Shown here: in pieces, positions 7,092-20,481 of the stretch
How positions within the stretch are numbered: position 1 is the stretch's first letter
Layout: the number at the start of each line of letters is the position of its first letter
From: Planctomycetota bacterium
GTDB lineage: Bacteria; Planctomycetota; Phycisphaerae; Sedimentisphaerales; Anaerobacaceae
NCBI GenBank assembly: GCA_020351025.1
Contig: CP070728.1
Coordinates: 817,099 to 879,024, forward strand
DNA length: 61,926 bases
Reading direction: 5' to 3'
Position numbers and translations under genes: made by a program
The notes under the pieces: model-generated
Database searches by the model: none
Seen by the model: only the letters and a program-made list of their open reading frames with translations
Told to the model about the DNA's origin: nothing

Positions 7092-8546
7092 TCAGCTGCT
7101 GCGAAGCTCTCTTAGGATATGCCAGTAAGCCCCCCGAGCTCCTTTTTTGACCGCTTCTACAAGTTCAGCATTGTCATTGTAATTGTGGTCGGTGGAGGGG
7201 TTGTCTACATCAGCTTCCGGAGTTTGTTCCTGCACTGGTCCAAAAAACCGTTTATCACCCGCAATTAAATCCTGGATGAGTGCAGCTGGTTGCTCGCCCA
7301 AGGCAGCAGATATATAGAATGTTGGTCTGAAAAAGTCGACGGTCCCAGGATACTTTCGACGGATATTAGGGTTGGTCTCGAGTGGGCCTTCAGCAGCTAC
7401 CAAGTGCGCCATTTCGGTGTTGGGGTAGATTCTGACGCCAAGGGGTGCACCTGCACAATCGGGGTTGATTTTCTTAATAAAGTCGATTGTTTCAGCAGCT
7501 GTCAGTGCTGTTTCGCCGGGCCCACCCAACAGCAGGTCTATCATAACTTTTATTCCGTTTTGACGACACAAATGAACGGCTGAAGCGAGGTCTTTCTTGA
7601 GATGTGGTTGACGATAAGTTTTTAACATTTTGGGACAGGCGGAATCACCTGTGAAGTCGATGCCGACACAGCCGGCATTACGCATAGCTTTAGCAAGCGC
7701 GGTATCGAAAGGTACCACTGCCATATAGGTATACCAACGCAATTGCTTTCCAACTGACCGGCGTTTAAACTCCTCACAAACGGCGTACGCATGATTTGGA
7801 GGGATGTTAAATTCGGAATCACATAAATGTAATACATCTATTCCTTTGGCTATTAAAGATTCAGCTTCGTCTGCGACTTCGGAGGGTTTTCTCAGTCTTA
7901 ATGTGGTACCTTTGGCAAGGGGGTCTGCACAATAGATGCACTTACGATTACAACCTCTTTTTGTCTCCAGGCCACACTGGCCTCCCTTTTGGAAGTAAGT
8001 TTGATTGTCAATCGCGTCCCTATTAGTGGGTAAAGAAAGCTGTGCGTTCCAAGCTGGTGGATTACTTGACATTTCTCCATTACGGTGCCAAATCAGGCCA
8101 TCAACTTTTTCAAAACACTTTGTTTTCTGCAACTCGTTAAAAAGCGAAACTATTGCCTGCTCGCCGTCACCGCAAATTCCAAAATCTGCACCAGTATATT
8201 CAACAATGCGCTGAGCGAAGATGGAAAAGCCAACGCCACCAACCACAATCGGAGCATCCGTCATATTTCGTATTGTACGTACGGTCTCAGCCAGGCCGGG
8301 GACAAACCACTTGGCACTGGGCCAAAAACAATCGTCAACATTGCGAAAAGAAACCCCCACTAACCCAGTGGTGTGATTAGCAAAATAGTCCTTCAAGCTA
8401 TTGATTGGGTCGTCAGACAAGCACAAATCAACAATATCGACCTTGATGCCGACTTTGCTGACAGTTTCAGCGATATAGTCCAAGCCAATAGGTGATACCG
8501 CAGGAATCATCGTGTTTGTATTGATAAGAGTTAACATATATGCCAC
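7092..8546 (-). CDS. Cobalamin-binding-domain radical SAM protein
   Basis: 484 residues. Residues about 1-150 resemble a B12-binding Rossmann domain ('VGGVGFSIFAQRIVEYTGADFGICGDGE' spans its end). Next is the radical SAM core with 'KRGCNRKCIYC', a CxxxCxxC cluster ligand set, and 'GGPGE' further on. Such enzymes cleave S-adenosylmethionine and often methylate unreactive carbons. The start is uncertain: GTG 8546 has GGAG only 4 bases away and ATG 8537 has it 13 away. The gene stands alone, followed by 250 AT-rich bases, so no pathway can be assigned. TatC lies 36 bases upstream in the same direction. Confidence 0.75.
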   Translation of the reverse strand: MAYMLTLINTNTMIPAVSPIGLDYIAETVSKVGIKVDIVDLCLSDDPINSLKDYFANHTTGLVGVSFRNVDDCFWPSAKWFVPGLAETVRTIRNMTDAPIVVGGVGFSIFAQRIVEYTGADFGICGDGEQAIVSLFNELQKTKCFEKVDGLIWHRNGEMSSNPPAWNAQLSLPTNRDAIDNQTYFQKGGQCGLETKRGCNRKCIYCADPLAKGTTLRLRKPSEVADEAESLIAKGIDVLHLCDSEFNIPPNHAYAVCEEFKRRSVGKQLRWYTYMAVVPFDTALAKAMRNAGCVGIDFTGDSACPKMLKTYRQPHLKKDLASAVHLCRQNGIKVMIDLLLGGPGETALTAAETIDFIKKINPDCAGAPLGVRIYPNTEMAHLVAAEGPLETNPNIRRKYPGTVDFFRPTFYISAALGEQPAALIQDLIAGDKRFFGPVQEQTPEADVDNPSTDHNYNDNAELVEAVKKGARGAYWHILRELRSS

Positions 8547-8581: not shown

Positions 8582-9346
8582 CTATTCATTTATCCTCTTT
8601 TTACGGTTTGCGAAGTAGCTTAGCAATATCCCCAACTCAAACAATAAATACAGCGGCAGTGCGAGGGTTATCTGAGAAATTACATCGGGCGGCGTAGCCA
8701 CAGCTGCCACAACAAAAACCCCGAGGAGAACAAATTTTCTCGACCTGCGCAGCACCTGGAGGGAAACCAAGCCGGTTCTATTTAAAAAGAGAATTGCAAC
8801 CGGAGTCTGAAAAGCGATGCCAAAAACGAGCATCAAAGTGGTTACAAAAGATATGTAGTTGCGAAAGGTAAAACTGGAGCTAACACCGAGGATTTTTTCA
8901 TTGAACTTTACAAGAAAACCAAGAGTAATCGGCGCTACTACAAAGATAAAAAACAAAGCGCCTGCAACAAATAACGCTGCTGAAAAAGGTGTGGCTAAGT
9001 GTACATATCGTTTTTCATTAGGATAAAGCCCGGCGGAGATAAACATCCATAACTGATAGAAGACCCATGGACAAGAGAGTATCAAGCCTGAAATCAGTGA
9101 TATTTTCATATAGCTGACAAAGCCGTCGGCAGGGGCAAGTGTTTGCAGACGTGCTTCTGGGCCCATCACATTGATATACGGTTTTTCTATAAAGGTTATT
9201 ATTTTTGAGCCAAAGAAAAGGCAAAAGATGGAACAGACCACCACACCAGCCAGCGCGAGGATAAGCCGCATGCGCAATTCCTCGAGATGGTCGCCCAGGC
9301 TCATAGTGGAATTAAAGAGGTCGTTTTTATTATCGTTCTCGCCCAT
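8582..9346 (-). CDS. tatC: Sec-independent protein translocase TatC
   Basis: 254 residues and six membrane helices. It contains the N-terminal 'HLEELRMRL' motif conserved in TatC, the 'CPWVFYQLWMFISAGLYPNEK' region and 'FGIAFQTPVAIL'. TatC binds twin-arginine signal peptides and forms the core of the Tat translocon in the cytoplasmic membrane. I prefer ATG 9346 over a TTG at 9358; neither has a clear ribosome site, so translation may be coupled to tatA, which ends 42 bases upstream. Several Tat-type precursors are encoded nearby (10688-12163, 13420-14418, 16201-20068), so this translocon probably serves them. Confidence 0.93.
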   Translation of the reverse strand: MGENDNKNDLFNSTMSLGDHLEELRMRLILALAGVVVCSIFCLFFGSKIITFIEKPYINVMGPEARLQTLAPADGFVSYMKISLISGLILSCPWVFYQLWMFISAGLYPNEKRYVHLATPFSAALFVAGALFFIFVVAPITLGFLVKFNEKILGVSSSFTFRNYISFVTTLMLVFGIAFQTPVAILFLNRTGLVSLQVLRRSRKFVLLGVFVVAAVATPPDVISQITLALPLYLLFELGILLSYFANRKKRINE

Positions 9347-9388
9347 TTCAAACGGCAAGGTGGAATTCGGAAAGCAATTTTAAGTAAG

Positions 9389-9783: not shown

Positions 9784-10641
9784 TTACAAACCTACGTTTA
9801 TTTCAACAATCCTTATATGCCGGTCACGATCGGCGGCAGTTGCAAGTGTTTTACCATTTTTATCTACGGCCATGCTCTGCCCGCCATATACTTGACCTTT
9901 CCATGGTCCTTTTGTTATTTCACCAACAAGGTCGGTTGCAACCACGGCTGCTCTTGTTTTGTTAGCAGCGTTCTTAACGACCTTTTGCAGCTCTTTACCG
10001 TGGTCAGGCCATTTTTCCTCCGGTGCGGCCCATCCGTATGGTATCAATAGCAAGTCCGGTTTCAGAGCGGCCATTCTTTCTAATATTTCAGCATCAAAAG
10101 TGTCGGCACAAATCAACAGACCAATTCTACCAAATTTAGTCGCCACCACATTAACTTCTTTGCCGGGTGTATAGGGCGGAGTCATCAGTTCCGGCAATAT
10201 ATTTATCTTTCGGTGCTTAAAAAGAATCCGGCCTTTGTCGTCAATGAAAAGAACTGAGTCATGCAAGTTTGTGCCATTCTTTTCCGCCAGACCAACGCAA
10301 AGATAAGTTTCATACTTTTTAGCCAGTTCACAAAGACGCTGAGAATCTTTACCCGGGATTGGATACGCCCTTTCGTGCGCATCGGAGTTTACCCAACCCA
10401 AAATAACGGTTTCCGGGAAACAGATAATATCGGCTCCGTTGTCTTTTGCCTGGCGAATTGCATTTTCAATTCGGACAAAGTTTCCGGAACGGTCACCGTC
10501 AAGTGAAAATATCTGACACATAGCAACTTGTATACTACTCATTTCTGCTGAAACGCCCTTTGTAATCCAAAACAAGGGCAATAATGCCAAAAAAATGCCA
10601 TAAAAAACAGCTTTTATTGCTATATTTTTGTGCCAAACCAT
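9784..10641 (-). CDS. Exported carbon-nitrogen (nitrilase-fold) hydrolase
   Basis: 285 residues. The catalytic triad is visible as Glu in 'ICFPET', Lys in 'HRKINI' and Cys in 'LICADTF'. The family hydrolyses amides or nitriles through a cysteine thioester. Unusually for a cytoplasmic family, the protein begins with a hydrophobic helix and an Ala-rich cleavage-like site ('KGVSAEM'), suggesting export or membrane anchoring. I take ATG 10641; an in-frame TTG at 10662 is possible and neither has a good ribosome site. It lies between tatA and the Tat-exported amidohydrolase on the same strand. The substrate is unknown. Confidence 0.78.
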   Translation of the reverse strand: MVWHKNIAIKAVFYGIFLALLPLFWITKGVSAEMSSIQVAMCQIFSLDGDRSGNFVRIENAIRQAKDNGADIICFPETVILGWVNSDAHERAYPIPGKDSQRLCELAKKYETYLCVGLAEKNGTNLHDSVLFIDDKGRILFKHRKINILPELMTPPYTPGKEVNVVATKFGRIGLLICADTFDAEILERMAALKPDLLLIPYGWAAPEEKWPDHGKELQKVVKNAANKTRAAVVATDLVGEITKGPWKGQVYGGQSMAVDKNGKTLATAADRDRHIRIVEINVGL

Positions 10642-10687
10642 CTCAAAGCTAATTATTAACAATTTAGACTAAAAGTGCTGACTTTTA

Positions 10688-12163
10688 TCACGCCCGTTTT
10701 ACCTTCTTCAATATTTTTTCTTTTTCAGCAAGATTAAAAATACGTCGGGCATTTCCATGCATTATCGGGTCGGTTAGTTCCAATGCATCATTCAAACTCA
10801 ACCACTTCTCCTCAACCAATTCTGACAAAGCCAGGGCAATACCATGCCTGGCTATTAAAGCATGACCCAAAACCGGTTCGACCGGACTATAATCACCGCC
10901 GAAAGTCAAAATTTTATTGGCAGGAACCGCGACAAGGTACTTTTTTAAAAAGTCCTTGGCTGCAACAGGATTGATTATCCATGACCAGCACATATCCACG
11001 TAGGCATTCGGGTAATGCTTGGCGATTGAGATAAGCTCCTCGTAATATGGGTAGCAGATGTGCATAAAAACAAATCTTGTCTGCGGTGACATTCTACATA
11101 AGTCCGTTGCCGCTCCCGGATTATGGATGAGTCGAGACAAAGGCATTCTGGGTTTTTTATCGCCCCAAATTGCATAATAGCCTGTATGCAATTTTACAGG
11201 AAGATTATGTTCGGTAGCTTTATCAACTGCATACCAGAACAAGTGGTCCTCAAGTGCTTTTTGCTCTTTGGCGGTTAGGGATTGGCCGCTTAGTCTTTTA
11301 CTAAAAATCACATCTACTTTTTCTGATGGCACTTTCTCATAATCGATATTACGGTCGTACGCATTTTGCGATTTAACCGCAACGGCGTATTTGCCGTATT
11401 TATCAAACCACCAGTCTATGACCTTATGCCAGTCATTGAGGCAGGTGACCTTAATACCTGTGGGTTTGCTGTAATGCTCAAGATTCGGGCCTGCCAACAT
11501 ACCTACAATACCTATATCCTGCATAAGCAGTGTCGGCATATTAGATTCATGGAAACCATCGCCGCTGTTCACTTGGCAGGATTCTATTTTTGCCAAATCG
11601 CACAAAATGCGCTTATAAAAGCCCGGGCGGCGGACCTTTTCATATCCGGCCTGTACTTTGCCTATAGTTTCTGCGGTAAGCTCTTCAACGCCATATAATT
11701 CCTTCACCGAAATACGCACTGCCTGTCCGTATCCGGTATTCTTGATAAACGGCCAAACAGGTTCAAGGAAGGCCCATTTTTTCAAGGGGTCAACACCTGG
11801 AGAAAAAAAGTTCCTGTGGTCTTTTTCGGACATACCCGCCGAACGCATATCGGATTGTAAGTAACCTCTGAAAACTATAGTCCAATCATCGCTGTTGTTT
11901 CCGTAGCTGTAGAAGGCCGGAGAAAGCCGCTTGCTTTCATCCGGCAGATGTTCATGTGTATCAATAAACGGAGTTTGGAAAACCTTCTGAAATATTTTCT
12001 TTCGGATATTGCCCAAATGAGCAGTTAAGTCAGATTCCTGTAGAGTTTTTTCCTCACCAACGGCTGTTTTCGAACTCAGGAAAGCAAGAGCACCGGCTGC
12101 CCCTATGCCTTTGAGAGTGGACCTCCTTGAAATCAAAGTTTTGCTTTTTTTATTATTCTTCAT
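10688..12163 (-). CDS. Tat-exported amidohydrolase-family metal-dependent hydrolase
   Basis: 491 residues, start supported by GAGG 8 bases upstream. A twin-arginine signal opens the protein ('SRRSTLKGIGAAGALAF'). The TIM-barrel amidohydrolase features follow: 'FIDTHEH' (HxH metal ligands), 'FMHICYPYYEE', 'TFGGDYSP' (late aspartate) and the C-terminal 'HGNARRIFNL'. It resembles Amidohydro_2 proteins and, loosely, uronate isomerases. Folded export through Tat suggests a metal-loaded enzyme acting outside the cytoplasm. It is divergent to the redox operon starting at 12399, so shared control is possible. The reaction is not assignable. Confidence 0.78.
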   Translation of the reverse strand: MKNNKKSKTLISRRSTLKGIGAAGALAFLSSKTAVGEEKTLQESDLTAHLGNIRKKIFQKVFQTPFIDTHEHLPDESKRLSPAFYSYGNNSDDWTIVFRGYLQSDMRSAGMSEKDHRNFFSPGVDPLKKWAFLEPVWPFIKNTGYGQAVRISVKELYGVEELTAETIGKVQAGYEKVRRPGFYKRILCDLAKIESCQVNSGDGFHESNMPTLLMQDIGIVGMLAGPNLEHYSKPTGIKVTCLNDWHKVIDWWFDKYGKYAVAVKSQNAYDRNIDYEKVPSEKVDVIFSKRLSGQSLTAKEQKALEDHLFWYAVDKATEHNLPVKLHTGYYAIWGDKKPRMPLSRLIHNPGAATDLCRMSPQTRFVFMHICYPYYEELISIAKHYPNAYVDMCWSWIINPVAAKDFLKKYLVAVPANKILTFGGDYSPVEPVLGHALIARHGIALALSELVEEKWLSLNDALELTDPIMHGNARRIFNLAEKEKILKKVKRA

Positions 12164-12280: not shown

Positions 12281-12309
12281 TTGACAAAGCCAGCAACAAA
12301 AACTATAAT
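12281..12309 (+). promoter_or_regulatory. Perfect-consensus sigma70 promoter of the redox operon
   Basis: TTGACA (12281-12286), exactly 17 bases, TATAAT (12304-12309): both boxes and the spacing are ideal. It faces the DUF6599-DUF362-polyferredoxin-AKR genes. The expected leader is about 83 bases and includes the hairpin at 12341-12368. Confidence 0.82.
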
Positions 12310-12340
12310 CCGTCCGAGTTGTGAGGTCAAGTAAACGCCG

Positions 12341-12368
12341 TTAGAAATTTCACTTTCGGGATTTCTAA
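12341..12368 (+). promoter_or_regulatory. Hairpin in the leader of the redox operon
   Basis: TTAGAAAT (12341-12348) and ATTTCTAA (12361-12368) form a perfect 8-base-pair stem with a 12-base loop. An alternative stem pairs AAGGG (12367-12371) with CCCTT (12381-12385) just before the GGGAG ribosome site. The two overlap by two bases, so they could compete. No terminator T-tract follows. Confidence 0.35.
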
Positions 12369-12398
12369 GGGAATAGAAGGCCCTTATGGGAGTTAGCT

Positions 12399-13427
12399 AT
12401 GGCTTCGGCTGGGCGACGAGCAAAAGTTCTCGAATCTGCCATTAGCATCTGTCTGTTAGCACTTCTTTTTGTTACCGGGGTCGGAATATTCATAAAGCAA
12501 TACAATTCAGATATGAGCCGATTTGGTATCGGCACAGTCACTACAGTTCAACCACTGCAAGAACTTCAAGTAATTTCAGAAGAAAAACCAGACTTAAGCT
12601 CTTTTGTACCTGCAGAATTTGAAAGCCTGTCAGAAACTGAAGTCTACCAACCCGTAACTCTTTACGAAAAGATTAACGGCAAAGCTCCTCTTTATATCGA
12701 AGCCGGCTTTGAAGAATTGTCCACCAAGCGTTTCGTTGACAAGAACGACGAGAGCCTGTGGATGGAGCTTTTTGTTTATGATATGGGGAACGTCAGAAAC
12801 GCTTTTTCCGTTTACAGCATCCAAAGGAGAGCTGACGCGGATATTCTCTCGCTCTTCCATACATCTTTCGGTTACAGGACCAGCAACGCTTTATATTTTG
12901 TTCACAGCAATTACTACGTTGAGCTGGTCGGTTCCTCTGAATCAGACGAGCTCTTTAAGGCCCTGATAGAAGTTGCTCAGAAAATTCGGTCGGATTTACC
13001 CGTTGATGATAAAACCAGGATTGCCGAACTTGGTTTTTTCCCCACAGAGAACCTGGTTTTAGAAAGTATAAAGCTTTACCTGGCAAATGCCTTTGGATTC
13101 GAAGGCCTGACCGATACTTTTACTGCGAAATATAACATCGAGGGTGAAACTGTTACGGCATTTTTGAGCAAACGGTCCGAACCAAAAGATGCAAAAATGG
13201 TCGTTGAAAATTATTATAACTTTTTGATTGATAACGGCGGCGTGGTTAAGCAGGCGGTCAATAAAGTTTTTGAAGGCAAAGTTATGGATTTCTATGGCAC
13301 GACGGAAATTGTCTTTGCCGTGGGACAGTTTGTTGCCGGTGTCCACGAGGCGGAAAACCAGCAAGCTGCCGAGAAAGCGGCAGATATACTCACTAATAAG
13401 CTAAATAATGTCATGAGTAATGAGTGA
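12399..13427 (+). CDS. DUF6599 family membrane-anchored protein
   Basis: 342 residues. One N-terminal membrane helix ('AISICLLALLFVTGVGIFI') precedes an extracytoplasmic domain with 'PLYIEAGFEEL' and 'ELFVYDMGNVRNAFSVYS', which I recognise as the DUF6599 pattern. GGGAG lies 6 bases before the ATG. It opens the operon and overlaps the DUF362 gene by 8 bases, implying translational coupling. No cofactor motif is visible. The constant company of DUF362 and a polyferredoxin suggests an accessory subunit of an extracytoplasmic redox system; its function is not known. Confidence 0.7.
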   Translation: MASAGRRAKVLESAISICLLALLFVTGVGIFIKQYNSDMSRFGIGTVTTVQPLQELQVISEEKPDLSSFVPAEFESLSETEVYQPVTLYEKINGKAPLYIEAGFEELSTKRFVDKNDESLWMELFVYDMGNVRNAFSVYSIQRRADADILSLFHTSFGYRTSNALYFVHSNYYVELVGSSESDELFKALIEVAQKIRSDLPVDDKTRIAELGFFPTENLVLESIKLYLANAFGFEGLTDTFTAKYNIEGETVTAFLSKRSEPKDAKMVVENYYNFLIDNGGVVKQAVNKVFEGKVMDFYGTTEIVFAVGQFVAGVHEAENQQAAEKAADILTNKLNNVMSNE

Positions 13428-14418
13428 AGACAACGAGAAAAAATTAGACCGAAGGAAGTTTATCGCAAGGGCCGGTAAGGCGGCAATCTCACTCGCCGCT
13501 GCGGGTACAGTCGCGTATTTGGTTTACGACAGTAAAGGTCCCGGTCCGAGTACCGGAGTTGAAGAGATAGTGACGCTTCCGGACTTCACTGTATCCCCAC
13601 AAGCCGGGCAGACAATAAGCATTGTAAAAGGACCAGACAGGGTAAAAACAGTCGATAAGGCAATAGGACTTCTCGGCGGCATAGAAAGATTTGTCAAGCC
13701 CGGTGAAACAGTTGCAATAAAACCGAATGTAGCATTTGCGTCACCGCCGATGCTTGGTGCTACAGCCAATCCTGAACTGGTTGCTGAAGTTGTGAGGCTG
13801 TGCTACAGCAGAGGCGGAGCAAAAAAGGTTTATGTCACGGACAATCCAATCAACGACCCTGCAAGCTGCTTCAGGTTGAGCGGGATAGGTAAAGCGGCAA
13901 GCGAGGCTAATGCCGAAGTGGTAATGCCAAAGGATAACCTTTTCAAACATACAACCCTGTCGGGGGGCCGGCTGATTAAGGACTGGCCTATTTTCTATGA
14001 GCCATTCAAGAACATAGACAAATTGATTGGTATCGCTCCGGTTAAAGACCATCACCGCAGCGGTGCTTCGATGTCCATGAAAAACTGGTACGGGCTTTTA
14101 GGTGGGCGCCGCAATATTTTTCATCAGGATATAAATACAATTATTGCCGAACTGGCAATGATGGTCAGGCCGACATTGGTTATACTCGACGGCACTACCG
14201 TTATGATGACCAACGGGCCAACGGGCGGCTCGGCCTCAGATTTAAAACGTGCGAACACATTAATCGCAAGCTGCGACATGGTAGCGGCTGATTCTTACGG
14301 CTGCAGCCTCTTAGGGCTGGCAGTGGCAGATTTGCCATACCTTGCAAAAGCTGAAAAAGCCGGTGCTGGAACCACCAACTATGAGACACTTAAACCAAAA
14401 TTTGCTACCGTAAGCTAA
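13420..14418 (+). CDS. Tat-exported DUF362 domain protein
   Basis: 332 residues. The twin-arginine signal 'DRRKFIARAGKAAISLAAAG' is followed by the DUF362 domain, with 'VKPGETVAIKPNVAFASPP', 'VAPVKDHH'-like and 'MSMKNWYGLLGGRR' segments. DUF362 proteins often accompany or contain ferredoxin domains; no CxxC cluster is seen in this one, so electrons would have to be handled by the polyferredoxin encoded 11 bases downstream. The start ATG overlaps the previous gene's stop by 8 bases. The enzymatic role of DUF362 is unsettled. Confidence 0.78.
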   Translation: MSEDNEKKLDRRKFIARAGKAAISLAAAGTVAYLVYDSKGPGPSTGVEEIVTLPDFTVSPQAGQTISIVKGPDRVKTVDKAIGLLGGIERFVKPGETVAIKPNVAFASPPMLGATANPELVAEVVRLCYSRGGAKKVYVTDNPINDPASCFRLSGIGKAASEANAEVVMPKDNLFKHTTLSGGRLIKDWPIFYEPFKNIDKLIGIAPVKDHHRSGASMSMKNWYGLLGGRRNIFHQDINTIIAELAMMVRPTLVILDGTTVMMTNGPTGGSASDLKRANTLIASCDMVAADSYGCSLLGLAVADLPYLAKAEKAGAGTTNYETLKPKFATVS

Positions 14419-14429
14419 AAAGCGCAATT

Positions 14430-16175
14430 ATGAAAATTGTACAGACCAGGCGAACAAGTCAGATTTTCTTTTTCACCCTCTTTGTATGGTTCTGCATTGT
14501 CAGCACTGTAGGAGAAAAGTTTTGGCAAATAAGAGGATGGCCTATTAACTGGTTTTTGCAGCTCGACCCTCTGGTGGCAATCGGCACGATATTAACAACA
14601 AAAACGCTTTACCGTGCCCTTTTGTGGGCGCTGGTGACGGTTTGCCTGACAATAATATTGGGGCGGTTTTTCTGTAGCTGGGTTTGTCCTTTCGGTTCAC
14701 TGCACCACTTTGTAGGCTATTTGGGCAGCAGGGAAAAAACGACAGCACAAAAAATCCAGCTCAACAAATACCGAAAGGCTCAGTGTATAAAATACATTAT
14801 CCTCGTGTTTTTTCTCGCTATGGCTGCGTTTCCATCGATAGCGGTGACTTTGCAAACCGGCTTACTGGACCCGATACCACTGATAACCCGCTCTTTCAAC
14901 CTGGTATTATTGCCTATAGTTGATAGGACGGTCAACGTTGCTTCAGCAATGGGACGCTTCTACGAGAGGGCATGGCTGATACTGGCGATATTTTTCACAG
15001 CGGTCTTTTTAAATTTGCTTATCCCTCGATTCTATTGCAGATTTATCTGTCCGCTCGGTGCGTTGTTCGGTATTCTCGGCCGATTTGCAATCTGGCGAAT
15101 AGGCAAGAACAAAAGCGAATGTATTAATTGCAAACTATGCGAGAAGTACTGTGAAGGCGGCTGTGAGCCCAGTGGCAATATAAGGATAAGCGAATGTGTA
15201 CTTTGCTTTAATTGCCGGGACGATTGCAAAGATGAGATAATCAGTTACCAAACCCAGATATCATCGCCGGGCGAAATCACAGACCCAGATATATCCCGCA
15301 GGGCTTTTGTCCTTTCACTGGCCAGCGGGATACTTGCGGTGCCTGCGGTCAGGTTAGGCAACAAGCTGGGGGCAAACTGGTATCACAAAGCTATTCGGCC
15401 GCCGGGCGCTCTGGCGGAAGAAGAATTCTTAAGCAGGTGTCTCAAGTGCGGCCAATGTATGCGGGTATGTCCTACAAATGTCATCCAGCCTGGCGGCATC
15501 GATGGGGGTTTGGAAAACCTGTGGACGCCCGTATTAAACAATAGAATCGGTTCGAGCGGCTGTCAGTTAAACTGCACTGCCTGCGGGCAGGTATGTCCAA
15601 CCTCGGCTATCAGGCCAATTACACTGTCAGAAAAACTCGGCACCGGTGAGTTTGCAGAGGTTGGGCCAATCAGATTGGGCACTGCCTTTGTCGACCGCAA
15701 CCGATGTCTGCCCTGGGCAATGGACAAACCCTGCATAGTCTGTCAGGAAAACTGTCCCCTTAGTCCAAAGGCAATTTATACCGAGGAAATTTTCAACACT
15801 GTAAGAGAAGGTACTTTGACAGTGAAAAAAGCTACAGAGAAAAAGATAGAGACTGTTGAAGAAACACTTGTGCTAGGGAGGTTTTCTACTGGTGACTATT
15901 ATTGCACTAGCGAAGGCGGCGAAGGCTTAAAAATTGCAGCAAATACAAAAAATTTAATCGAACTGACACCCGACAAAAAAAACGGGAAAATACCTGCTGA
16001 GGGTAGTATAATTGAGGTTAAGGTCCGGCTGCAAAGACCTCTCATTGATATTGAAAAATGTATTGGCTGTGGAGTTTGCGAACATGAATGCCCCGTCAGC
16101 GGTAAAAAAGCTATAAGAGTCTCTGCAGAAGGTGAGACAAGAAACGCCGACAGCAGACTGTTACTTAAAAGTTAA
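14430..16175 (+). CDS. Membrane polyferredoxin, NapH-like plus NapG-like fusion
   Basis: 581 residues. The N-terminal half has membrane helices with two CxxxCP motifs ('FFCSWVCPFG', 'YCRFICPLGA'), as in NapH/CcoG-type quinol-to-periplasm electron carriers, then two cysteine-rich clusters ('CINCKLCEKYC', 'CVLCFNCRDDC'). At about residue 288 a twin-arginine-like hydrophobic segment ('SRRAFVLSLASG') begins a NapG-like half with further clusters: 'CLKCGQCMRVCP', 'CTACGQVCP', 'CIVCQENCP' and 'CIGCGVCEHECP'. It would draw electrons from the quinone pool and pass them along about eight iron-sulfur sites to extracytoplasmic partners, plausibly DUF362 and the reductases that follow. Confidence 0.82.
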   Translation: MKIVQTRRTSQIFFFTLFVWFCIVSTVGEKFWQIRGWPINWFLQLDPLVAIGTILTTKTLYRALLWALVTVCLTIILGRFFCSWVCPFGSLHHFVGYLGSREKTTAQKIQLNKYRKAQCIKYIILVFFLAMAAFPSIAVTLQTGLLDPIPLITRSFNLVLLPIVDRTVNVASAMGRFYERAWLILAIFFTAVFLNLLIPRFYCRFICPLGALFGILGRFAIWRIGKNKSECINCKLCEKYCEGGCEPSGNIRISECVLCFNCRDDCKDEIISYQTQISSPGEITDPDISRRAFVLSLASGILAVPAVRLGNKLGANWYHKAIRPPGALAEEEFLSRCLKCGQCMRVCPTNVIQPGGIDGGLENLWTPVLNNRIGSSGCQLNCTACGQVCPTSAIRPITLSEKLGTGEFAEVGPIRLGTAFVDRNRCLPWAMDKPCIVCQENCPLSPKAIYTEEIFNTVREGTLTVKKATEKKIETVEETLVLGRFSTGDYYCTSEGGEGLKIAANTKNLIELTPDKKNGKIPAEGSIIEVKVRLQRPLIDIEKCIGCGVCEHECPVSGKKAIRVSAEGETRNADSRLLLKS

Positions 16176-16200
16176 AGCATTTTATTTGGAGTTAAATGTG

Positions 16201-17481
16201 ATGAACGAAAAACAGAATAAAATCGATAGAAGAAATTTCCTGAAGACAGTGGGGGCTGCAGGGTTCGGTTCCATTCTTACTTCGGCACAAACTAAAGCAG
16301 GCCCAAACGAGCCAAATGCTATTGAACCTAATGAACCTGAAAAAGAACAAGAACCTAAAATGCCGCAGGTCCCAAGGCGGAAACTCGGCAAAACAGATAT
16401 TGAGGTCCCCTGCTTGGCTTTAGGGGCAACGTTCAACACTATTGAGAACCAAGTTGTACTAAGAAAAGCTCTTGAATGGGGCGTTACCTACTGGGACACA
16501 GCCGACACATACGCCGGAGGCAACAGCGAGGCTGGAATAGGTAAGTTCCTCGAGAAAAACCCACAGATGCGAGAGAAGATATTTATTGTCACCAAGGCGT
16601 TCGGCACAAAAACCATTGAAGAGACGGAAGTGCATCTTCATACGTCACTTAGAAAACTGCATACCAGATACGTTGATTTGTACCTGATTATGGACCGGGA
16701 AAAGGATGAGCATGGCTTATCCGACCCCGACCAGCTAACGAATGATAAAGGCAGATTAGAACGCTGGGTCAAATTTGCCAAGAGGCGGAAGATGATACGA
16801 TGTTTTGGTTTCAGTACGCACAAAAATATGGCCAAGTGTCTTACTGCCGCCAGCAAGCTATACTGGATTGATGCAATAATGACAAGCTACAGTTTCCGAT
16901 TGATGCAGGATGCTGAAATGCAGGATGCTGTTGCTGCATGCCAAGAAGCAGGTGTCGGCCTTATTGCTATGAAGACACAGGCCTTCGGTCAAAAAGTCGA
17001 AACAGATGAGGACAAAAAACTCCTTGAACATTTTCTCCAGCGCGGCTTTACCGAGGGTCAAGCAAAGATAAAGGCAGTATTGCAAGACAAGAGGATTAGC
17101 TCAGTATGCTCGAAGATGGACAACATCGGAACTTTAACTTCAAACGTTGCTGCTGTACTGGATAAAACCGAACTTACCCGGGAGGATTTGGATGTTTTCA
17201 AGAGATACGCAGCAGCGACATGCAGCGGTTATTGTGCCGGTTGCGCACACATCTGCGACCGAGCCCTGCCGGAGGCTCCATATGTCAGTGAGATTATGCG
17301 CTATTTGATGTACTACAACAGCTACGGGGAAAAAGACAGAGCAAGAGAACTCTTCGCCAAGATTCCAAGCCAGGTAAGAAACAATCTGCTCGGAACCGAC
17401 TACAGCGTTGCAGAGCTTCGCTGTCCGCAGCAGCTGCCGATAGGCAAACTTGTCGCCGAAGCAGTGAGCAAATTAGCATAA
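16201..17481 (+). CDS. Tat-exported aldo/keto reductase with C-terminal Cys cluster (copy 1)
   Basis: 426 residues from ATG 16201 (GGAG 9 bases upstream; a longer frame from 16132 would overlap the previous gene). Signal: 'DRRNFLKTVGAAGFGS'. The AKR barrel shows 'YWDTADTYAGGNSE' (Asp, Tyr) and 'FIVTKAFG' (Lys). The position of the usual catalytic His reads 'LYLIMD', so it is missing. The C-terminus has 'CSGYCAGCAHIC' (Cx3Cx2Cx3C), likely one [4Fe-4S] cluster, as in ferredoxin-fused AKRs. First of three tandem copies. It probably takes electrons from the polyferredoxin rather than NADPH; the substrate is unknown. Confidence 0.8.
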   Translation: MNEKQNKIDRRNFLKTVGAAGFGSILTSAQTKAGPNEPNAIEPNEPEKEQEPKMPQVPRRKLGKTDIEVPCLALGATFNTIENQVVLRKALEWGVTYWDTADTYAGGNSEAGIGKFLEKNPQMREKIFIVTKAFGTKTIEETEVHLHTSLRKLHTRYVDLYLIMDREKDEHGLSDPDQLTNDKGRLERWVKFAKRRKMIRCFGFSTHKNMAKCLTAASKLYWIDAIMTSYSFRLMQDAEMQDAVAACQEAGVGLIAMKTQAFGQKVETDEDKKLLEHFLQRGFTEGQAKIKAVLQDKRISSVCSKMDNIGTLTSNVAAVLDKTELTREDLDVFKRYAAATCSGYCAGCAHICDRALPEAPYVSEIMRYLMYYNSYGEKDRARELFAKIPSQVRNNLLGTDYSVAELRCPQQLPIGKLVAEAVSKLA

Positions 17482-17525
17482 CGAAAATTTATTTATTGAA
17501 CGTTAATCATTTGGGAGCTGGTGCG

Positions 17526-18782
17526 ATGAAGAAAAAACAGAATAAAATGGATAGAAGAGATTTTCTAAAGACGATTGGCGCCGTAGGTGTGGGCTCTGTT
17601 TTACCCTCGTGCGATGCAAAAGCCGAACCAAATGACCCAAATGCTGTAGCAAAAATGCCCGGGCCGGCACTACCACAAGTGCCTAAGAGAAAACTGGGCA
17701 GAACCAGTATTGAAGTTCCGTGCCTATCACTTGGCTTAATGTATGACCTTATCGAGAAGCAAATCATATTAAGAAAGAGTGTTGAGCTGGGTATTAGTTT
17801 CTGGGATACGGCTCCAGCCTATGCGGGCGGAAACAGTGAGCTGGGAATAGGTAAATTCCTTGCTAAGAATCCGGAGGTTCGAAAGGATGTTTTCCTTGCC
17901 ACCAAGGCATCTGGGGCGAGAACAGTAAATGACGTGGAAAAGTGTCTCCAGGCCTCGCTGAAGAGACTCAATACGAGCTATATTGATCTATATCACGGCG
18001 TTCACGCATTAACCGACCCTGAGCAGCTGACGGACGAATTAAAGCAGTGGGTAAAAGATGCGAAGAAGCGTAAACTAATACGATCTTTTGGATTTAGCAT
18101 GCACACAAACATAGCGGAAAACCTTGCGGCTGTGGCCAAGCTTGACTGGATTGACGCTATAATGACAAGCTATAATTTCCGACTGATGCAGGATGCTAAA
18201 ATCCCGGAGGCTATTGATGCGTGCTACAATAAAGGGATTGGCCTTATTGCTATGAAGACAACCGGCAAAACAATCGTTAGCTGGGCACGCCAGGACATTG
18301 AAACCAAAGAGGACAAAAAACTGATTGACCATTTCCTCCAGCGAGGCTTCGGCGAGGAGCAGGCAACTATAAAACTTGTACTGGATGATAAAAGGATAAG
18401 CTCAGCTTGTGTGGGTATGGAAAATGTTGCTATTTTAAGCTCGAACCAGGCGGCAGTACTCGATAAGACCGAACTCACCAAGGAGCATTTTGAGGTATTC
18501 AGGGAATATGCAAAAGCTACCTGCAGCGGCTACTGCGCCGGCTGTGCAAACATCTGTAACCCAGTTTTGCCGGATATGCCATATGTCAGTGACATTATGC
18601 GTTATCTGATGTATTACAATACATACGGCGACAAGGATAGGGCAAGAGGACTCTTCGCTCGAATACCACGTGAGGTAAGAAACAAATTGCTTAGGACCGA
18701 CTACAGTGTTGCAGAGGCACGCTGTCCGCAGCAGCTGCCGATAGGCAAACTTATCGCTGAGGCAATAAGCAAATTAGCATAA
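17526..18782 (+). CDS. Tat-exported aldo/keto reductase with C-terminal Cys cluster (copy 2)
   Basis: 418 residues from ATG 17526 (GGGAG 8 bases upstream). The Tat signal 'DRRDFLKTIGAVGVGS' is followed by a stretch with a possible lipobox-like 'LPSCDA'. The barrel motifs are 'FWDTAPAYAGGNSE' and 'FLATKASG'. At the catalytic His region it reads 'LYHGVHALTD', with histidines displaced by two residues before and one after the usual position. The C-terminal 'CSGYCAGCANIC' cluster is kept. 44 bases separate it from copy 1. Likely the same system as its neighbours, with changed active-site chemistry. Confidence 0.8.
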   Translation: MKKKQNKMDRRDFLKTIGAVGVGSVLPSCDAKAEPNDPNAVAKMPGPALPQVPKRKLGRTSIEVPCLSLGLMYDLIEKQIILRKSVELGISFWDTAPAYAGGNSELGIGKFLAKNPEVRKDVFLATKASGARTVNDVEKCLQASLKRLNTSYIDLYHGVHALTDPEQLTDELKQWVKDAKKRKLIRSFGFSMHTNIAENLAAVAKLDWIDAIMTSYNFRLMQDAKIPEAIDACYNKGIGLIAMKTTGKTIVSWARQDIETKEDKKLIDHFLQRGFGEEQATIKLVLDDKRISSACVGMENVAILSSNQAAVLDKTELTKEHFEVFREYAKATCSGYCAGCANICNPVLPDMPYVSDIMRYLMYYNTYGDKDRARGLFARIPREVRNKLLRTDYSVAEARCPQQLPIGKLIAEAISKLA

Positions 18783-18835
18783 AGCAAATGTAATTGGCTG
18801 GACGTTAATCATTAAGTATTTTAGGAATTAAGGCG

Positions 18836-20068
18836 ATGAAAAAAAAATATAATAAAATAGACAGAAGGAATTTTTTAAAGACGATAGGTGCTGCGGGGCT
18901 GGGTTCAGTTTTAACTTCGCCCAATGCAAAAGCCGACTCTAATGAACCCAACGCGCCGCTGGAAAAAAAAGAACCGGCGTTCCCAAAAGCACCTAAAAGA
19001 AAACTGGGCAAAACCGGCATGGAGGTTTCCTCTATAGCTTTGGGGATGATTTTTGATGTTCTTGAGCAGCAGGTTGTACTAAGAAAGGCGCTTGAATGGG
19101 GTATCACATACTGGGATACCGCTGACTGCTATGTTGGTGGAAACAGCGAATTAGGAATAGGTAAGTTCCTTGAAGCAAATCCGACAATTCGCAAGGACCT
19201 CTTTATCGTCAGCAAGTCTGATGAAAGAGACCCGGAAGGTATGCAGAAGCTTCTGGAGCGCTCGCTTGAAAGAATGAAAACAGACTACATTGACATGTAT
19301 TTTATCCACGGTACAAGCGAACCGACAGAACTCAGCGAAGAAGTGAAGAGCTGGGTCGCTAATGCGAAAAAGTCAAAAAAGATTCGATTTTTCGGATTCA
19401 GCACACATAAGAATATGGACCAGTGCCTTACTGCGGCAGCTAAACTGGGCTGGATTGATGCGATAATGACAAGCTATAATTTTCGAGTGATGCAGGACCC
19501 AAAAATGCAAGCTGCTGTTGACGCGTGCTATAAAGCAGGGGTTGGCTTGGTTGCGATGAAGACCCAGGCGCGAGGCCAGGAAATTGAAACCGAAGAGGAC
19601 AAAAAATTAGTCGAACACTTCCAGCAGAAAGGTTTTACTGAGGGACAGGCAAAGCTAAAGGTTGTACTGCAAGACGAAAGGATAAGCTCGGCCTGCACAG
19701 GCAGGGGCAACCTTAGTGATTTATTAGCAAATGTAGCAGCTGCGCTGGATAAGACCAAACTTACCAAGGCTGATATCGATATCTTCAAGGAATATGCCAT
19801 AGCTACGTGCAGCGGTTATTGCGCCGGCTGCGCGCGCATATGTGACTCTGCCCTGCCGACCGCATCTTATGTCAGTGAGATTATGCGGTATTTAATGTAC
19901 TACAAAAGTTACGGCGAGCAACAAGAAGCAAAAGACCTTTTCGCCAAGATTCCCGGCAGTGCAAGGCGCAGATTGCTTAGTACCGATTACAGTCTCGCTG
20001 AAGCCCGCTGTCCGCAGCATCTGCCGATTGGCAAACTTATCGCCGAAGCAGTCACCAAGTTAGCCTAA
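18836..20068 (+). CDS. Tat-exported aldo/keto reductase with C-terminal Cys cluster (copy 3)
   Basis: 410 residues. Tat signal 'DRRNFLKTIGAAGLGS'. This copy keeps the full AKR tetrad: Asp and Tyr in 'YWDTADCYVGGNSE', Lys in 'FIVSKSD' and His in 'MYFIHGTSEP'. The C-terminus again carries 'CSGYCAGCARIC' and the family-wide ending 'RCPQHLPIGKLIAEAVTKLA'. It is the last gene of the operon, 53 bases after copy 2. It is the copy most likely to retain conventional carbonyl chemistry; copies 1 and 2 may have drifted to another use. Confidence 0.82.
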   Translation: MKKKYNKIDRRNFLKTIGAAGLGSVLTSPNAKADSNEPNAPLEKKEPAFPKAPKRKLGKTGMEVSSIALGMIFDVLEQQVVLRKALEWGITYWDTADCYVGGNSELGIGKFLEANPTIRKDLFIVSKSDERDPEGMQKLLERSLERMKTDYIDMYFIHGTSEPTELSEEVKSWVANAKKSKKIRFFGFSTHKNMDQCLTAAAKLGWIDAIMTSYNFRVMQDPKMQAAVDACYKAGVGLVAMKTQARGQEIETEEDKKLVEHFQQKGFTEGQAKLKVVLQDERISSACTGRGNLSDLLANVAAALDKTKLTKADIDIFKEYAIATCSGYCAGCARICDSALPTASYVSEIMRYLMYYKSYGEQQEAKDLFAKIPGSARRRLLSTDYSLAEARCPQHLPIGKLIAEAVTKLA

Positions 20069-20452: not shown

Positions 20453-20481
20453 AAACCGCCTATCTTTGGGCGGTTTTTTTT
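20453..20481 (+). terminator. Intrinsic terminator of the small transcript
   Basis: AAACCGCC (20453-20460) pairs perfectly with GGCGGTTT (20469-20476) across an 8-base loop and runs into eight T residues (20474-20481). Confidence 0.85.

Follow-up and report, generated by a model that had tools for sequence, protein, structure and literature searches.

A conserved operon joins a membrane polyferredoxin with DUF6599, DUF362 and predicted Tat-exported Fe-S aldo-keto reductases in Planctomycetota and other phyla

In MsrPQ and similar quinol-fed periplasmic reductases, a membrane component feeds an enzyme exported by the twin-arginine translocation (Tat) pathway, and NapGH is the quinol dehydrogenase of the periplasmic nitrate reductase. 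A further described system is the deltaproteobacterial polyferredoxin of MLMS-1 (Q1NSB0), a NapH-NapG fusion with transmembrane (TM) helices, a twin arginine just before TM5 and about seven iron-sulfur (Fe-S) clusters, three inside and four outside. Its dual Sec/Tat targeting was tested experimentally and its Tat-dependent membrane insertion was demonstrated (PMC5449189). Here we describe a six-gene operon in a stretch of 61,926 nucleotides (the window) of contig CP070728.1 from a Planctomycetota bacterium (assembly GCA_020351025.1), which is part of a 2.27 Mb single-contig genome. The operon encodes a DUF6599 protein, a DUF362 protein, a NapH-NapG-like fusion polyferredoxin (PolyFd) and three Fe-S aldo-keto reductases (AKR1 to AKR3). 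We propose, with a probability of roughly 60%, that it forms an extracytoplasmic redox module in which the membrane polyferredoxin exchanges electrons with exported AKRs. The module would resemble MsrPQ in arrangement; the proteins and the cofactors are different, and we claim no homology.

Among the 80 stretches kept from 148 related stretches in a PolyFd scan, the gene order DUF6599-DUF362-PolyFd-AKR, on the same strand, is found again in bacteria of at least four phyla, namely Planctomycetota, Desulfobacterota, Verrucomicrobiota and Sumerlaeota, and the nearest operon relatives in this set are metagenome-assembled genomes of Phycisphaerae and Sedimentisphaerales. When profile hidden Markov models were applied in six frames to 56 loci with complete flanks, all four genes were found in 44; counted separately, DUF6599 and DUF362 were each present in 50, and an AKR lay directly downstream in 48. 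For the eight loci without a neighbouring AKR, a full-length relative was located elsewhere in the genome in five cases and a fragment in one. Presence and absence were also scored in 60 related genomes, using presence thresholds that we set ourselves. PolyFd and AKR were concordant in 57 genomes (both in 27, neither in 30), with one and two genomes carrying a single gene, and the comparison of PolyFd with DUF6599 gave 26/2/0/32 (both, PolyFd only, DUF6599 only, neither), so that DUF6599 never occurred without PolyFd. The pairwise protein distances of the four genes correlate as well (Mantel r 0.47–0.80; largest null value 0.20). In distant planctomycetes, whose PolyFd is about 45% identical, the core of DUF6599, DUF362 and PolyFd is kept, often together with an AKR. 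Mere local synteny was rejected as an explanation, because the adjacency holds across phyla with differing outer neighbours. The co-occurrence of DUF6599, DUF362 and a NapH-like protein with Tat-type AKRs, which the initial annotation had named as a check on its idea of a shared system, is thus borne out, and the genes stay adjacent across phyla.

PolyFd is predicted from hydropathy and cysteine sets to have four TM helices with cytoplasmic clusters, an RRAF Tat motif (residue 290) ahead of TM5, and four periplasmic [4Fe-4S] motifs. This layout matches that of the Sec/Tat polytopic polyferredoxins described in PMC5449189, in which cytoplasmic clusters accompany four TM helices, the twin arginine precedes TM5 and four clusters are periplasmic. 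The conserved cysteines N-terminal to residue 290 make up two CxxxCP pairs and two four-Cys motifs, and those C-terminal to it a further four four-Cys motifs; all these positions show at least 99% conservation among 67 homologues. The protein had been described as carrying about eight cysteine clusters; the eight motifs stand, and the number of clusters becomes about seven, since the two CxxxCP pairs probably share one. The likeness to MLMS-1 Q1NSB0 is one of architecture, and the passages of PMC5449189 that were consulted mention no AKR, DUF362 or DUF6599 partner for that protein. With NapGH, PolyFd shares the Fer4 arrangement and the membrane topology, but it is a single fused polypeptide that bears an additional cluster region at its C-terminus, and the operon contains no Nap reductase genes. 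Membership in NapGH proper was rejected, because PolyFd falls far below the curated NCBIfam cut-offs (78.1 vs 213.05 bits for the NapH/MauN subfamily, 72.4 vs 269 bits for NapG, and 74.2 vs 234 bits for a third model).

All three reductases pass the PF00248 gathering score, and the barrel and the Asp-Tyr-Lys-His tetrad are common to them and the aldo-keto reductase superfamily. The tetrad is near-invariant among 77 relatives (D94 77/77, Y99 76/77, K127 77/77, H158 76/77); an apparent loss of the catalytic His in AKR1 was rejected, as the residue sits after a short insertion and the tetrad is intact. The operon AKRs differ from typical members in their predicted Tat export, a predicted C-terminal [4Fe-4S] site and altered NADP(H) (nicotinamide adenine dinucleotide phosphate) contact residues. 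A Tat motif is found in nearly all AKRs, and the four twin-arginine proteins named in the initial annotation correspond to DUF362 and the three AKRs, the PolyFd motif at residue 290 being a further, internal one. A Cx3Cx2Cx3C cluster had also been assigned to the C-terminus of each reductase. The C-terminal cysteine site is real, but its first Cys, in the CSGYC motif, occurs in only 38 of the 77 relatives, whereas C329, C332, C336 and the distant Cys-Pro residue C392 are near-invariant; the latter four are most likely the Fe-S ligands.

Sequence alignment of the cofactor site used two references, a cytosolic AKR from this genome and the AKR u104132, whose structure is solved (6kik). Canonical NADP(H) contacts are mostly replaced (Asn by Thr190, Gln by Met, Tyr by Met241, Ser by Lys242) and the basic residues of the phosphate loop are lost, while the Ser of the canonical Ser-Asn contact is retained. 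On the question of whether the NADPH pocket is kept, the alignment indicates that the AKRs do not keep the canonical site. A Tat-type AKR without the Fe-S motif, encoded in the same genome outside the operon (P0001, L006:1492-2475), shows the same altered His/Lys pattern, so the change is a lead on cofactor use and not proof. The AKRs might instead leave through Tat with NADP(H) already tightly bound and work as ordinary periplasmic oxidoreductases, their position in the operon reflecting shared export or expression only. The fully conserved tetrad and the presence of AKR paralogues away from the core (L170-L173) would suit such enzymes, but the near-invariant Fe-S cysteines, the altered contact residues and the tight co-occurrence with PolyFd argue otherwise, and we consider it unlikely. 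The paralogues away from the core suggest that several enzymes share one core. A genome usually holds several AKRs and one PolyFd, and the best reading is a hub-and-spoke arrangement, with one membrane Fe-S wire for several exported AKRs. Among these paralogue loci, L171 (G001:C1:2040001-2060000) contains an array of four or five genes or gene fragments for AKRs, adjoining an epimerase-like gene that in the window also comes after the operon, and L173 (G000:C1:1525335-1526294) contains a copy matching residues 1-310 only, without the Fe-S end and perhaps truncated.

The direction of electron flow can be considered from typical potentials. Alcohol/carbonyl couples lie at about -190 to -250 mV and menaquinone at about -75 mV, so oxidation would run downhill. 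The AKRs could then be periplasmic alcohol, polyol or sugar dehydrogenases whose electrons pass via the Fe-S site and PolyFd to menaquinone, a possibility that we hold tentatively. The potentials favour the oxidation of alcohols and sugars, sugar-type neighbours exist in some loci, and the tetrad is compatible with either direction, but in the NapGH-type modules that have been characterised, electrons move outward from quinol (PMC5449189). The initial annotation had proposed the reverse flow, in which the polyferredoxin chain drives NADPH-free carbonyl reduction outside the cytoplasm; the electrons would come from quinol, or from a cytoplasmic low-potential donor through the cytoplasmic clusters of PolyFd. 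This agrees with the homology of PolyFd to NapH and NapG and with the replaced NADP(H) contacts; however, the reduction of ordinary aldehydes and ketones by menaquinol is uphill, and AKRs of the P0001 type share the altered His/Lys outside the operon, so that this alteration does not necessarily imply that NADP(H) has been lost. In this specific form the proposal appears rather doubtful; an NADPH-independent reductase as such is plausible, but typical potentials agree at least equally well with quinone-linked oxidation.

The single-helix anchor protein of the initial annotation is DUF6599, which has one N-terminal membrane helix and scores 155.2 against a Pfam gathering threshold of 27 bits. 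Its AlphaFold model (mean predicted local distance difference test, pLDDT, 90) places two tandem sandwich domains after this helix. VIA-align gave Z 11.8 to 1vr8 (residues 208-342) and Z 11.4 to 4esq (residues 61-203), and the domains resemble 1vr8 and the soluble domains of PknH and TiME, and PsbP more weakly. The modelled protein thus looks like a membrane-anchored pair of PsbP/Mog1-like domains, and is probably a membrane-tethered docking or assembly subunit. No useful PDB sequence match was obtained for DUF6599, DUF362 or PolyFd.

The DUF362 protein (332 aa; AlphaFold model pLDDT 91) was compared with known structures using VIA-align and Foldseek. VIA-align gave Z 15-17 over 205-211 residues to the N-domains of LarA and malate racemase, against 5.4 for the next unrelated fold, so the model points to a LarA N-domain fold. 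Only residues 70-301 align, and the protein lacks the C-terminal substrate domain of LarA. DUF362 and the LarA lactate racemase family (PF09861) belong to one Pfam clan, CL0471 (PMC11770544). H211, K221 and D141 of DUF362 are invariant and enzyme-like, and in a weak profile alignment (P 0.003) with consistent positions they pair with His174, a conserved Lys and His108 of LarA, where roles are described for the catalytic His108 and His174 and for the cofactor-linked lysine (PMC12393405). DUF362 thus shares with LarA the N-domain fold and, if the weak alignment holds, H211 and K221; it differs in probably having Asp141 in place of His108, in its predicted Tat export (the motif is found in 50 of 50 aligned proteins) and in showing no dependence on LarC. 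A nickel-pincer (NPN) cofactor, considered for the LarA fold and the aligned H211/K221, was put aside as unlikely, because LarC (PF01969), which synthesis of the nickel cofactor requires, does not track the operon: it is present in the operon's own genome, but was found in only 10 of 28 genomes with PolyFd, without association, and not in the other 18, several of which are at least 95% complete. The Tat motif suggests that a cofactor would be inserted before export, and DUF362 is probably a cofactor-binding partner or relay. A more specific version would have DUF362 use its LarA-like scaffold, without nickel-pincer synthesis, to carry, in the periplasm, a hydride cofactor of nucleotide type that is tethered to it, as a one-to-two electron relay between PolyFd and AKRs free of pyridine nucleotide. 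We regard this as very improbable; if true, it would be a new kind of extracytoplasmic hydride chemistry. DUF362 might also be a maturation factor or chaperone, with the core mainly assembling or repairing exported Fe-S AKRs and not feeding them electrons in catalysis. DUF6599 and DUF362 lack redox motifs and match PolyFd in how well the operon conserves them, and DUF6599 resembles PsbP/Mog1-like domains, which suits such a role; yet a repair factor would hardly seem to need the six or seven Fe-S sites that are invariant in PolyFd, and the invariant H211, K221 and D141 look enzyme-like. We regard a mainly assembling core as improbable.

In the redox module that we favour, PolyFd would act as a one-electron carrier at or across the membrane, linking the periplasm to the quinone pool or to a cytoplasmic donor. 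The exported AKRs, each with one C-terminal [4Fe-4S] cluster beside a tetrad-bearing barrel, would exchange these electrons with a carbonyl or hydroxyl substrate, probably a sugar or sugar derivative. DUF6599 would dock or assemble at the membrane, DUF362 would bind a cofactor or relay, and the single-copy core would serve several AKR paralogues. Secreted sugar-type genes (DUF4832/GH42-like and ThuA) within the operon of some planctomycete copies give a mild carbohydrate hint. The location proposed in the initial annotation is supported by the Tat motifs conserved in the AKRs and DUF362 and by a polyferredoxin architecture for which Tat dependence is published (PMC5449189), and its shared system is supported by the co-occurrence and the non-canonical NADP(H) site. 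Several points weigh against the module. Two genomes (G352 and G353) have the core and no close AKR in the genome, and one 74%-complete genome (G018) has an AKR without PolyFd. Genomes within one family are non-independent, so that the Fisher p-values are too optimistic. The hint at sugars comes from few loci. Finally, Fe-S chains deliver single electrons and AKR chemistry moves hydride, and none of the four families showed a flavin-like hydride-to-electron converter.

Reading the window on both strands confirmed six open reading frames, all on the plus strand at 12399-20068, with operon-like spacing: the first two genes overlap by 8 bp, and the gaps that follow measure 11, 25, 44 and about 50 bp. 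Together with the Pfam assignments and the promoter match in Table 1, this agrees with the initial description of six same-direction genes behind a perfect-consensus promoter. In 24 of 57 related loci, TTGAC-TA promoter-like pairs, many of them perfect, lie upstream of the DUF6599 gene.

Table 1 Operon genes, regulatory features and tatC, in window coordinates
Feature	Position	Strand	Evidence
Candidate sigma-70 promoter TTGACA-17-TATAAT	12281..12309	+	12/12 consensus positions, 17-nt spacer (match to consensus)
DUF6599 gene	12399..13427	+	Pfam PF20244 1.8e-45
DUF362 gene, Tat-type	13420..14418	+	Pfam PF04015 5.7e-44
PolyFd gene (NapH-NapG-like fusion polyferredoxin)	14430..16175	+	Multiple Fer4; NCBIfam NapH 7.5e-22, NapG 3.2e-20
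AKR1, Tat-type, predicted Fe-S aldo-keto reductase	16201..17481	+	PF00248 2.5e-23
AKR2, Tat-type, predicted Fe-S aldo-keto reductase	17526..18782	+	PF00248 9.3e-26; tetrad and C329/C332/C336/C392 motif
AKR3, Tat-type, predicted Fe-S aldo-keto reductase	18836..20068	+	PF00248 8.4e-26; tetrad and four Cys family-conserved
Terminator-like hairpin, then T run, after AKR3	20453..20476	+	Found once, 0.3 expected from shuffles
tatC (TatC translocase; context, outside operon)	8582..9358	-	Pfam PF00902 8.1e-65; about 3 kb upstream of operon

A divergent Tat-type amidohydrolase gene (10688-12163, minus strand) begins near the operon promoter, with a weaker promoter-like site (12330-12302) pointing toward it, and is followed by a nitrilase-like hydrolase gene (9784-10662, minus strand). 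The window further encodes a radical SAM protein with a B12-binding domain (7092-8546, minus strand), and an epimerase-like gene comes after the operon. A tatC-like family occurs about 5.5 kb upstream, on the opposite strand, in 15 related loci, and putative thiamine-pathway genes, named from sequence reading, lie upstream of the operon in several Desulfobacterota loci (L088, L101, L103 and L106). In planctomycete loci, a DUF4832/GH42-like gene for a secreted-type protein is inserted between DUF362 and PolyFd (L044:8542-9954, L046:7565-8977, L048:8555-9967 and L051:8397-9809; Pfam was run on L044), and ThuA-family genes stand between tandem AKRs (L041:5173-6051 and L046:13570-14445).

In an open-access literature search, nothing relevant beyond PMC5449189 appeared for AKRs with DUF362, Tat or a polyferredoxin, and no paper on DUF6599 was found; a PolyFd-AKR electron pathway could not be found described in that literature. 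The operon places three families about which little is understood, DUF6599, DUF362 and the Fe-S AKRs, in a concrete setting. The core genes are present in cultured sulfate reducers, among them Desulfoferrobacter suflitae DRH4 and Desulforhabdus sp. TSK, and the module is testable in such organisms. If the proposal is right, anaerobes of sediments and groundwater would have a widespread route linking their membrane electron pool to carbonyl and hydroxyl chemistry outside the cytoplasm, through AKRs that may not use NADPH.

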